Assembly: GCF_022869805.1 (NCBI RefSeq)
Contig: NZ_CP094974.1
Location: forward strand, 3,472,001 to 3,536,000
From: Halosolutus halophilus
GTDB taxonomy: Archaea; Halobacteriota; Halobacteria; Halobacteriales; Natrialbaceae
Direction: 5' to 3'
DNA length: 64,000 bases
Part shown: positions 6,199-10,337 of the stretch, in pieces
Position numbering within the stretch: position 1 is the first letter of the stretch
Layout: every line of letters starts with the position of its first letter
Program-made: the position numbers and the translations under genes
Notes under the pieces: model-generated
What the model was told of the DNA's origin: nothing
The model's input: only the letters and a program-made list of their open reading frames with translations
The model's database searches: none

Positions 6199-6275
6199 GA
6201 GTGTGCTGGTCCCGTCGCCAGCGTCGCCGGATCGATTCCCACTCGCCTTTACCCACCGCCGTCGTAGCCGCGGCC

Positions 6276-7145
6276 ATGCACGGAACCGGAGTGCCGATCG
6301 TCACGCCGTTCGACGAGTCGGGATCGATCGACGAGTCGACGCTGACCGACCTCGTCCGCTGGCTCGAAGGCGCCGGAATCGACTTCCTCGTCCCCTGTGG
6401 CTCGACCGGCGAAGCGCCGCTGTTGACGCCCGACGAACGCGTACGGCTCGTCGAGATCGTCTCCGAGGCGACGGATCTCCCCGTGGTCGCGGGAACGGGT
6501 CACGAGGGGTTCGACCCGACGCTCGAGACGACCGTACGCGCCGCGGAGGCGGGAGCCGACGCTGCGCTCGTCGTCACGCCGTCGTACTACGGGTCGGACG
6601 ACGAGGTACTCGCCGCGTACTACCGCGACCTCGCCGACGCGTCGCCGATCCCGATCTACCTCTACAGCGTCCCCAAGTTCACCGACCGCGCGCTCTCGCC
6701 GGATACGGCTGCGGCGCTCGCGACTCACGACGACATCGCGGGAATCAAGGATTCCAGCGGGAGCCTCGAATCGCTCCAGCGACTCGTCCGCCTGACCCGC
6801 GGCGAGGAGTTTTCGGTCCTGGTCGGGAGCGGCAGCGTCTACGCGGCCGGCCTCGCGATCGGTGCCGACGGCGGCGTGCTCGCCGTGGCGAACGTCGCAC
6901 CCGAACGGGCGAGCGCGATCTACCGCGCCCACCGGGACGATCGCGCCGCGGAGGCACGATCGCGCAACATGGACCTGGTCGAACTCAACCGGGCCGTGAC
7001 GGCCCGCTACGGCGTCCCCGGCGTGAAGGCCGCGCTCTCGCTCCGCGAACGGCCCGTCGGGACGCCCCGGCGACCGCTTCGCCCGCTCGACGACGCGGCC
7101 GTCGCCGACCTCGAATCGGTTCTCGCGGAGACGATCGAGGGGTAG
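6276..7145 (+). CDS. DapA-family class I aldolase (dihydrodipicolinate synthase / KDG aldolase type)
   Basis: 289-residue (beta/alpha)8 aldolase of the DHDPS/NAL family. CGSTGE at 41-46 is the substrate carboxylate/Thr-Tyr loop, Tyr130 sits in IYLYSVP, and the Schiff-base lysine is Lys158 in GIKDSSG. These fit pyruvate-dependent aldol chemistry: lysine biosynthesis (DapA), 2-keto-3-deoxygluconate aldolase or N-acetylneuraminate lyase. No dapB or sugar genes adjoin, so the exact substrate is open. The frame is open upstream of 6276 but that part is Arg-rich and not family-like; ATG 6276 begins the conserved MHGTGVPIVTPF. It is divergent from the AIR synthase-like gene. Confidence 0.9.
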   Translation: MHGTGVPIVTPFDESGSIDESTLTDLVRWLEGAGIDFLVPCGSTGEAPLLTPDERVRLVEIVSEATDLPVVAGTGHEGFDPTLETTVRAAEAGADAALVVTPSYYGSDDEVLAAYYRDLADASPIPIYLYSVPKFTDRALSPDTAAALATHDDIAGIKDSSGSLESLQRLVRLTRGEEFSVLVGSGSVYAAGLAIGADGGVLAVANVAPERASAIYRAHRDDRAAEARSRNMDLVELNRAVTARYGVPGVKAALSLRERPVGTPRRPLRPLDDAAVADLESVLAETIEG

Positions 7146-8423: not shown

Positions 8424-8491
8424 CCGTCTCCGGCGACCACGGCGCTGCGAGACGGACGGTCTTTTTCACCCCGCGCGTCCAACCACCGCCG

Positions 8492-8599
8492 ATGACCGCG
8501 AGCTGGAGCGACCTGTTCGATCGGAGCCGCGAGTACGACGTCGACCTCGAGGCCGTCCGGGAGGCGTGCGACGAACTGGAGGATGGAATCGATGGCTGA
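8492..8599 (+). CDS. 35-residue mini-protein preceding the PIN-like gene
   Basis: A short ORF, MTASWSDLFDRSREYDVDLE and on to GIDG, strongly acidic and predicted helical. Support for coding: a TATA-like TCTTTTTCACC at about 8459-8469 lies 27 bp before its ATG, so this ATG would be the leaderless start of the transcript. It overlaps the next gene by 8 bp and contains that gene's Shine-Dalgarno (GGAGG, 8578-8582). No function is known. A small acidic antitoxin-like partner of the PIN-like protein, or simply a coupling leader peptide, are both possible. Confidence 0.6.
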   Translation: MTASWSDLFDRSREYDVDLEAVREACDELEDGIDG

Positions 8600-9065
8600 G
8601 GGGTCGAACGCGGCCCGCGTCGTGGCCGACGCGGACGTGCTGGCGGCCGACCTGCTCGTCGGCGGGGCGGCCCGCGAGGCACTCGATCACGTTCGCCGCC
8701 ACTCCTGGGTCGAACTCGTCGCGAGCGACTCGCTGCTCGATCGGACGGAACGCGTCGTCGCGCGGCTCGCCGACCCGGACCTCGCGGCCGCCCATCGGGA
8801 CCGTCTCGCAGCCGATCGGATCGCGGTCGATCACCCGGAGGAGGATCACCCGGCGCTGGCCTCGGCCTACCAGGGCAACGCGGCCCATCTGCTCTCCTAC
8901 GACGAACGCCTCCGGTCGGCGAAAGCCGGCCTCTCCCTCCAACCCCGGGTGTCCGTCAGCGTCCGGCCGCCGGACGCGTTCGCCCAGCTGTTCGATCCCG
9001 AAAGTCTCTACGAGGCCGTCGAGGGTGGCTCGTATCCGGGGCCCGATCGGGATCCGCGGGCATGA
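8592..9065 (+). CDS. PIN-like domain protein (haloarchaeal, uncharacterised)
   Basis: 157 residues. The start VVADADVLAADLL, with Asp13, Asp15 and Asp20 after a beta strand, is the typical opening of PIN-domain ribonucleases. It is followed by alternating helices, ASDSLLDRTE, and a late SYDERLRSA strand with another acidic residue; the C-terminus is RPPDAFAQLFDPE. This suggests a PIN or PIN-derived fold, so RNA cleavage is an inference. The ATG at 8592 is chosen over 8583 because a GGAGG lies 9 bp before it. It is translated from the same transcript as the 35-residue ORF (8-bp overlap) and converges on arsM with a 9-bp gap. Confidence 0.7.
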   Translation: MAEGSNAARVVADADVLAADLLVGGAAREALDHVRRHSWVELVASDSLLDRTERVVARLADPDLAAAHRDRLAADRIAVDHPEEDHPALASAYQGNAAHLLSYDERLRSAKAGLSLQPRVSVSVRPPDAFAQLFDPESLYEAVEGGSYPGPDRDPRA

Positions 9066-9074
9066 TCGGCACCG

Positions 9075-9887
9075 TCACTCGGCCTCCGGTTTCCGCGCTT
9101 CGATCCGTGCGGAGACGATCGGCAGGTCGTCGGTCCACTCGCCCTCGATCGTGATCGAGACGTCGACGAAGCCCGCGTCGTCGAGCCAGCGGTCCATCTC
9201 GTCGATCGTCGCAGCACCGCCCACGCAGGCGGTGACGGCCTCGGGATTCTCCCGGACTTCGTCGGGAAGCGGCTCGGTCGCGACGAGGTCCGATATCGCG
9301 AGCCTGCCGCCGGGTCGAAGCACCCGGAACGCCTCCGCGAGCACCCGCGGCTTCTCGGGCGAGAGGTTGACGACGCAGTTCGAGATGATCGCGTCGATCG
9401 TCCCGTCCGCGACCGGCAGGTGCTCGATCTCGCCGAGCCGAAACTCGACGTTCTCGAGGTCGCTCTCGCGGGCGTTCGCCCGGGCCTTCTCGAGCATCTC
9501 GGGCGTCATGTCGACGCCGATCGCGCGTCCCTCGGGGCCGACCTCGCGCGCCGCGAGGAAGCAGTCGAACCCGCCGCCTGAGCCGAGGTCGAGTACCGTC
9601 TCGCCGACCTCAAGGTTCGAGATCGCGATCGGGTTCCCACAGCCCAGTCCGAGATTTGCGTCGTCGGGAGTCCCCTCGAGATCGGTCGCGTCGTAGCCGA
9701 TCGAGCGGGCCCGATCGCTGGCCGTCTCGTCGGCCTCGATGGTGGTGTCGTCCGTGCCACAGCAGTCGCAGTCGGTACTCGCGATCGACCCGTACTCATC
9801 GCGGACGGTCGATCGGCGGGTCGTCGGGTCGGTATCGGTCGGTGTCGTCTCGTCCGTCGTCGGTGCGGTCGGTGTCTCGTCTGTCAT
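9075..9887 (-). CDS. arsM: Arsenite S-adenosylmethionine methyltransferase
   Basis: 270 residues with a Rossmann SAM-binding motif LDLGSGGGFD at 99-108. The three cysteines that hold As(III) in ArsM enzymes are visible: Cys83 (LGLGCGNP), Cys171 (ISNCVVNLSP) and Cys221 (TACVGGA). An extra CDCC cluster sits at about 40-43. It methylates arsenite to methylated, partly volatile forms in the cytoplasm. The N-terminal 30 residues are Thr/Pro/Asp-rich and low complexity. It lies 45 bp downstream of arsR on the same strand, so the pair is a small arsenic-responsive operon; no arsenite pump or arsenate reductase is nearby. Confidence 0.95.
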   Translation of the reverse strand: MTDETPTAPTTDETTPTDTDPTTRRSTVRDEYGSIASTDCDCCGTDDTTIEADETASDRARSIGYDATDLEGTPDDANLGLGCGNPIAISNLEVGETVLDLGSGGGFDCFLAAREVGPEGRAIGVDMTPEMLEKARANARESDLENVEFRLGEIEHLPVADGTIDAIISNCVVNLSPEKPRVLAEAFRVLRPGGRLAISDLVATEPLPDEVRENPEAVTACVGGAATIDEMDRWLDDAGFVDVSITIEGEWTDDLPIVSARIEARKPEAE

Positions 9888-9932
9888 CGTGTTGGTGTCC
9901 GTGTGTCGTTCGTCGTCGGTACAGGTTCGCCG

Positions 9933-10322
9933 TCAGTCGTCGTCCGGAACGTCCACGGCCGCGGCGACGTCGAGCAACTCGAAGACCGCGGTGTCGGCGA
10001 TCCGGTAGTACGTCCATCGGCCCTTCTTTCGGCTCTTGACCAGGCCGGCCTCACGGAGCGTCCGGAGGTGCGTCGCAACCGTCGACTGCGGTGCGTCGAG
10101 GACGACCTGCAACTCGCAGACGCACCGCTCGCCGTCGCGGAGCGCTTCGAGGATCCGGACCCGGTGTTCGTTCGCGAGCGCGCCGTAGACCGCCGTTTGC
10201 GTCTCGACTCGCTCCGCGTCCGATCGCAACCCCTCGAGATCCGCGACGGGGTCCGCCACGTCGTCGCGCAGTTGTTCGACCGTGCAACAGGCGTCCGCGA
10301 GGTGGTCATCGTCCGACGACAT
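9933..10322 (-). CDS. arsR: ArsR-family arsenic-responsive repressor
   Basis: 129-residue winged-helix regulator. The sensor loop ERCVCEL (Cys67, Cys69) is the classical ELCVCDL As(III)/Sb(III) motif in the DNA-recognition region, with extra N-terminal Cys12-Cys13. The HTH (APQSTVATHLRTLREAGLV) and wing (KKGRWTYYRI) follow. It should bind its own promoter and release it when arsenite binds. The ATG at 10322 is preferred to a TTG five codons upstream because a TATA-like AAAATACAG is centred about 26 bp before it. It heads the arsR-arsM operon. Confidence 0.94.
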   Translation of the reverse strand: MSSDDDHLADACCTVEQLRDDVADPVADLEGLRSDAERVETQTAVYGALANEHRVRILEALRDGERCVCELQVVLDAPQSTVATHLRTLREAGLVKSRKKGRWTYYRIADTAVFELLDVAAAVDVPDDD

Positions 10323-10337
10323 ATCGGGTTTTCCCAA

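Follow-up and report, generated by a model that had tools for sequence, protein, structure and literature searches.

Organization of the locus

The window (the whole stretch of DNA that was analyzed, 64,000 nucleotides; G000:C1:3472001-3536000, in a genome of 5.06 Mb) carries two overlapping genes on its forward (+) strand, preceded by a TATA-like element of a putative leaderless promoter (8460 to 8468). The first gene is a mini-ORF (8492 to 8599, with ATG at 8492 and the stop TGA at 8597 to 8599) for a microprotein of 35 aa and net charge -9, in which a conserved motif of W5, L8, F9, and R11 is followed by a predicted second helix. The second (8592 to 9065) encodes a 157-aa PIN-fold protein of the family DUF7384 (PF24109). 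The two share 8 nt (8592 to 8599, of the ATGNNTGA type), the PIN frame being +1 relative to the mini-ORF, and a GGAGG Shine-Dalgarno (SD) sequence for the PIN gene lies within the mini-ORF at 8578 to 8582, 9 nt before the ATG at 8592. The mechanical first start of the PIN gene is an in-frame ATG at 8583, but this ATG abuts the GGAGG. Within the TATA-like element, a T run at 8462 to 8466 spans -30 to -26 from the mini-ORF start. The original prediction had described an acidic 35-residue ORF at 8492 with a TATA-like box upstream, an 8-nt overlap, and a GGAGG carried for the next gene, and all of these are borne out, with a recurrence across loci (see below) well beyond chance.

Convergent with the pair, a SAM methyltransferase gene (Methyltransf_31; 9075 to 9887, - strand) adjoins an ArsR-type regulator (9933 to 10337, - strand); these two (9075 to 10337) look like an arsenite methyltransferase with its repressor.

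Homologous loci and counting

Comparisons were made over 150 loci. Eighty of these (the named loci, L097 to L176) were the top 80 of 173 hits to a pattern that lies within the C-terminal tail of DUF7384, and the conservation of the tail among them is therefore built in. Selection of the other 70 took no account of the tail; they comprise the 30 best matches among relatives, 20 picked from the other 23 places in the relatives, and 20 from the Halobacteria sample. Dropping duplicates L097, L141, L156, and L170 before counting left 146 unique loci. The microprotein profile was built from the 70 loci, and its matches among these are partly by construction; its independent test is the set of 80 named loci, less 4 duplicates of seed loci. 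Start codons of both genes were chosen by rule, that of the PIN gene being the nearest ATG or else GTG.

DUF7384 has a predicted PIN fold and a largely conserved acidic quartet

The 157-aa protein is a clear member of PF24109 (249.3 bits against a cut-off of 27; E = 1.8e-74) and also matches PIN_3, at 22.4 bits, under that model's cut-off of 27. Its best matches elsewhere were at E = 0.14 in NCBIfam (the PIN family model TIGR00305), E = 0.024 in PADLOC, and E = 0.51 in PHROGs, and the PIN profile searched against PDB sequences gave at best E = 0.74, to a heterodisulfide reductase. AlphaFold modeled the window PIN protein alone with a mean pLDDT of 90.3 and a pTM of 0.86. When this protein and a whole natural fusion (see below) were used as queries for structure comparison, the nearest solved structures were PIN proteins, many of them VapC toxins, and the PIN part gave best Z scores of 9.6 (to VapC4 of P. 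horikoshii) and 9.4 (to an M. tuberculosis toxin); Foldseek E-values were never under 0.001. By model and structure search, then, DUF7384 has a PIN fold, in agreement with its first description as PIN-like. The archaeal PIN structures AF0591 (1o4w) and that from P. horikoshii (5h4g) have the same fold, with a sequence identity to DUF7384 of about 13 to 17 percent in structural alignments. We know of no microprotein partner for either of them.

VapC toxins share the acidic residues D, E, D, and D/N (PMC7180214). The candidate counterparts in the window protein, at positions that we assigned ourselves and not by superposition, are putative ligands D13 (8628 to 8630), E53 (8748 to 8750), D85 (8844 to 8846), and D104 (8901 to 8903), in that order. 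Among the 146 loci, D13 is kept in 141, E53 in 115, D85 in 145, and D104 in 135, with N in 3 more; a further acidic residue, D20, is present in all 146. Because D13 is replaced in five loci (A in 3, G in 1, and S in 1, with L004 and L017 among them) and position 53 is not E in 31, some members of the family may be noncatalytic. About as conserved as the acidic residues are R35, H37, W39, and the Y148-P-G-P-D tail, the last by construction in the 80 named loci. In the window this tail runs from L139 to R156 (9006 to 9059), contains the motif Y-P-G-P-D-R-D-P-R, and is of a kind absent from the PIN proteins that have no microprotein.

The substitutions at D13 and position 53, and the strength of conservation outside the quartet, would also suit a complex that serves as a PIN-fold RNA-binding or scaffold protein and has no nuclease activity. 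We regard this as improbable in view of how rarely D85 changes, of the 138 loci with D or N at position 104, and of the invariance of D20. DUF7384 is probably an endoribonuclease.

A conserved microprotein accompanies DUF7384

A microdomain with the pattern W-x-x-L-F is found directly upstream of DUF7384, or fused to it in frame, in 144 of the 146 unique loci (108 separate, 36 fused, and 2 with none); before duplicate removal, the profile search gave 148 of 150 loci (111 with a separate ORF, 37 fused, and 2 with none). All 80 named loci have it (52 separate and 28 fused), with a lowest profile score of 19.3 bits (L140), and scores are at most 2.1 bits in the loci of f2, the family without the microprotein. 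Reading of the upstream DNA revealed a W/F-x-x-L-F peptide in 68 of the 70 loci, while a single-sequence search detected the microprotein in 26 of 61 relatives, every time close upstream of DUF7384. The 12 Haloferax loci other than that of H. volcanii all have a separate mini-ORF. The original prediction had mentioned a similar pair in other haloarchaea, and these counts confirm it. In an aligned-family search of 26 genomes, with at most 150 of up to 222 candidates per genome scored, there was no sign among the matches listed that the microdomain is reused elsewhere in the genome, the best place outside the DUF7384 locus having E = 0.004.

The separate form has a median length of 34 aa (range, 30 to 58; 94 of 108 are no longer than 40 aa) and a median net charge of -6. 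Across the 144 aligned microproteins, 126 have W and 18 have F at position 5, L8 is present in 139, R11 in 132, and position 9 is F without exception; at position 30, the window's microprotein has E against R in 124. Nonsynonymous change is suppressed, with pN below pS in 116 of 118 close pairs that are not independent of one another (mean pS, 0.334; mean pN, 0.104), and with 37, 48, and 113 differences at codon positions 1, 2, and 3 in 19 independent pairs. Judged by this pattern of substitution, the frame is under purifying selection, and we infer that the mini-ORF is translated. The original prediction had named a protein that is not a PIN fold, or a mini-ORF poorly conserved or frameshifted in relatives, as grounds for its own dismissal; what we find is a modeled PIN fold and a mini-ORF that is conserved in frame.

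No significant match to the window microprotein was obtained in Pfam, NCBIfam, PADLOC, or PHROGs (best PHROGs E = 0.042; nothing in PADLOC). Thirty-seven microproteins searched against NCBIfam gave no match and against Pfam no significant one, three models being hit by one member each, at best with E = 0.012 (RHH_4, ribbon-helix-helix), and the microprotein profile found only chance-level matches among PDB sequences (best E = 0.31, the HTH-type repressor DasR). This is a conserved gene of 30 to 58 codons that curated family libraries have missed.

A leaderless first ORF in tight overlap with the next gene could in principle be a leader peptide, which would solely regulate translation of the PIN gene and whose product would have no function. 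The conservation of W/F-x-x-L-F, with F9 in every aligned sequence, and a pN well below pS are not what such a peptide would show, and the same domain is kept in the fusions and has a confident predicted fold (see below). We give this explanation almost no credence.

Start signals and overlap point to coupled translation

The 108 separate loci have, as a profile, the marks of a leaderless transcript, namely, a TATA-like box about 26 to 30 nt before the mini-ORF start, a -10 WW, and almost never an SD. The frequency of T reaches 0.79 and 0.81 at -27 and -26 from the mini-ORF start, and A+T peaks at -11/-10. One of TTTT, TTTA, or TATA occurs at -34 to -20 in 67 of the 108 loci and at -60 to -46 in none. 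GGAG or GAGG precedes the PIN start in 86 of 108 loci, versus the mini-ORF start in 4. Both TTWT, a motif that the element in the window fits, and the -10 WW are elements proposed for haloarchaeal promoters, and 72 percent of protein-coding transcripts were leaderless in H. volcanii (PMC4983044). The transcript would start at or next to the mini-ORF ATG, and the proposal of a leaderless mini-ORF is supported in the wider set of loci. In the fused loci, the promoter is less uniform than in the separate ones, since the TTTT/TTTA/TATA motif is present in only 6 of 36, with A+T at 0.81 at -26. A scan for sigma-70 promoters and terminators returned nothing, as expected for an archaeon. Short palindromes in the window lie inside the mini-ORF (8526 to 8555), and the only one to reach the promoter is one arm of a 10-nt pair separated by 87 nt.

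Of the 108 separate loci, 85 have an overlap of exactly 8 nt and 8 have one of 4 nt; overlaps of 11, 14, and 17 nt also occur, and two loci have a gap. In H. volcanii, coupling by re-initiation has been measured for genes with short overlaps, and such overlaps are especially frequent among subunits of heteromeric complexes, the commonest coupled overlaps being 4 and 1 nt (PMC10666635). The DUF7384 pair differs from those coupled genes in that 8 nt is the rule and 4 nt the exception.

It is conceivable that the overlap is instead a programmed +1 frameshift site and that the true product is always a fusion, as the +1 position of the PIN frame and the existence of fused forms in 36 of 146 unique loci would allow. 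Every one of the 108 separate loci, by contrast, has a PIN start codon by our rule, in 86 with an SD before it, and the variety of overlaps fits re-initiation rather than a fixed slip site, making frameshifting a very improbable account.

Natural fusions and a structural model of the microdomain

The 36 unique fusions are mostly in Haloferacaceae (Halorubrum, Halobellus, Halobaculum, Halohasta, and others) and are also seen in the window's own family, f1 (L017 and L029), and in f3 (L058 and L068). The linker between the two parts has a median length of 27 and a median charge of -8 by a crude pattern rule, which does not work for L068, at least. In a quick tree made from the PIN part, the fused and separate states require at least 12 changes, at least 3 of them on well-supported branches, versus 32 for shuffled labels, a rough count given that 68 of 142 inner branches are weak. 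Because of these repeated changes, fusion or fission has probably happened more than once.

We modeled one fusion, that of Halobellus rarus (L114), with AlphaFold (mean pLDDT, 93.3; pTM, 0.89). The microdomain is predicted to form two helices (residues 4 to 14 and 18 to 37), with pLDDT values of 97 to 98 over residues 1 to 30 and 84 over residues 31 to 40; the linker has values of 58 to 71. The PF24109 match covers residues 61 to 213 only, which places the microdomain outside the family. The microdomain makes up about 17 percent of the residues; its placement appears fairly confident, since a pTM of 0.89 would otherwise be hard to reach, and the model suggests that the microdomain docks on the PIN domain. 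Block 111 to 120 and the tail have pLDDT values of 94 to 97 in the fusion model, versus 72 and 88 to 89, respectively, in the PIN-only model, a difference that is suggestive only, as it is confounded by the different query and by alignment depth (80 versus 39 rows, chosen from eligible loci plus the window). A test for covariation between the chains, with an effective number of sequences of about 14, yielded no pair that exceeded the highest value from 20 shuffles.

One lineage lacks both the microprotein and the tail

DUF7384 is present in three of the four f2 genomes searched. None of the three has the microprotein by profile, and in each DUF7384 ends about 19 residues short and has no YPGPD tail. 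The f2 genomes are small and incomplete, and the three loci have 43 to 44 percent G+C versus 62 to 68 in three others measured. Microprotein and tail occur together in 68 of the 70 loci whose selection did not depend on the tail, and both are missing from the other 2. Such joint presence and absence suggests a single structural unit made up of the two, although the absence comes from a single lineage with incomplete genomes.

DUF7384 is a core gene in a stable chromosomal context

DUF7384 was found in 53 of 61 relatives. Of 292 Halobacteria genomes sampled, 283 have a match, 282 of them over the cut-off; nine have no match (G044 to G047, G059, G063, G092, G114, and G124), and G039 has a weak partial one only. 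Five of the nine genomes without the gene are about 2 Mb in size, and within one genus (g63), some members keep the gene while others are without it. Apparent second copies in four genomes (G184, G186, G187, and G292) were rejected, being weak partial matches in other long frames (one of them, in G292, narrowly passing the cut-off at 27.4 bits) or, for G187, a fragment of the gene already counted. A sample of 148 genomes from the phylum contained 21 with a match (20 over the cut-off), all from the window's order, and among 14 control genomes only Haloferax volcanii carries DUF7384. A search of 72,556 plasmid and 50,697 phage records, an uncounted part of them haloarchaeal, returned no match. 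As a yardstick, the number of PF01850 PIN matches in each of 21 relatives ranges from 1 to 15, PIN proteins that are not toxins included. DUF7384 is, then, a haloarchaeal core gene, usually in single copy.

Neighboring genes were clustered as mechanical ORFs within 4 kb on each side of the 80 named loci, and names apply only to clusters whose representative matches Pfam. Downstream and on the opposite strand, a Ham1-type NTP pyrophosphatase is found in 50 loci, DUF5808 in 38, TsaD (Kae1-Bud32-like) in 25, and ribosomal protein S24e in 12; in L098, the convergent Ham1/DUF5808/TsaD/S24e block lies 1.3 to 4.3 kb downstream. Upstream, a TrkA-type gene occurs in 35 of the 80. The context of the pair is stable and chromosomal, not mobile.

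The original prediction had offered the two genes as a possible toxin-antitoxin-like pair. In such a pair, free DUF7384 would be a toxic VapC-like RNase, and the microprotein would block it as a minimal antitoxin that has no separate DNA-binding part. The formal likeness to type II VapBC systems stands: a PIN fold whose nearest solved structures include many VapC toxins, the acidic residues, and a small acidic protein encoded first by an overlapping gene. Such an antitoxin would also have models to follow: the antitoxins of VapC interfere with the binding of metal, and HipS, a split N-terminal domain that acts as an antitoxin, keeps an inhibitory reading alive (PMC7180214 for both). One of the 37 microproteins has a weak, nonsignificant match to the ribbon-helix-helix model RHH_4. 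A partner of 35 aa, on the other hand, would hardly be large enough to hold a DNA-binding domain as well as a part that binds the toxin, and PADLOC produced nothing for the microprotein and only E = 0.024 for the PIN protein. It is the toxin-antitoxin character that our results do not support. The patchy, multicopy, mobile distribution expected of VapBC is not that of DUF7384, a core gene usually present once per genome, with a partner of 30 to 58 aa, no plasmid or phage match, and 36 natural in-frame fusions. We therefore make no claim of VapBC membership, for which fold, gene order, and acidic residues fit and distribution does not, and we consider a toxin-antitoxin-like pair unlikely.

A probable two-part PIN protein

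We think it fairly probable that the mini-ORF and DUF7384 together encode a split, translationally coupled, two-part PIN protein of the haloarchaeal core. The bihelical microprotein would be its small subunit and the PIN-fold protein, probably a metal-dependent endoribonuclease, its large one. From a leaderless mRNA starting at or next to the mini-ORF ATG, a ribosome would make the microprotein, terminate at the TGA that overlaps the next ATG, and re-initiate with the help of the GGAGG inside the mini-ORF, which would supply the two chains in matched (1:1) amounts. The microprotein would then dock on the PIN domain by its W-x-x-L-F face, with the neighborhood of the conserved C-terminal tail and of the helix that follows D104 as the likeliest site, and stabilize or gate the active-site side. 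Several lineages have this domain joined to the PIN part in frame by an acidic linker, which would mean that docking in cis is enough. In our judgment, the pair works like a heteromeric protein with a split-off domain, and its role would be a housekeeping one.

A more specific version of the two-part protein, which we put forward tentatively and which may well prove wrong, is that a haloarchaea-wide core endoribonuclease is a split enzyme whose active-site side is completed by the YPGPD tail together with an obligate, cotranslationally supplied microprotein of 30 to 40 residues. Part of this version is that the tail is found only in lineages with the microprotein. If it is true, it would add a family of RNA-processing enzymes and one of microproteins, and we found no description of either.

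Two known systems offer partial precedents. In HipBST, a domain that is N-terminal in one protein (HipA) occurs elsewhere as a separate small upstream protein, HipS (PMC7180214); the enzyme there is a kinase and not a PIN protein, HipS has about 100 aa, and a third protein is present. The composite PIN endonuclease SMG5-SMG6 is an earlier case in which a partner completes a PIN nuclease (PMC12923823); the partner there is a second PIN domain rather than a 35-residue hairpin.

The pair had been described at the outset as one with no function assigned, and the literature searched contained no mention of DUF7384 and no account of the microprotein-DUF7384 pair. Nor did we find literature on HVO_1890 to HVO_1894, H. 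volcanii locus tags tentatively guessed for the pair region from gene order. A paper on archaeal fusion and fission families mentions neither DUF7384 nor a PIN domain in its main text (PMC11237513). A domain of unknown function carried by nearly all sampled haloarchaea becomes a testable two-part PIN protein, and Haloferax volcanii, which carries DUF7384, is a tractable host. Naturally split and naturally fused versions of one protein should be useful for understanding why genes split and how microproteins control nucleases.

Two further observations concern individual loci. The fusion at L139 (L139:3803-4591) and some other Halorubrum fusions have Asp/His-rich C-terminal extensions beyond the YPGPD tail, with a repeated DADQHP in L139. 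Two genes upstream of the pair in the window is a DHDPS-family gene (6201 to 7145, + strand), and a similar DHDPS-type gene, identified by eye, lies directly upstream of the PIN gene in two f2 genomes (L057 and L067), perhaps a trace of an old gene order.
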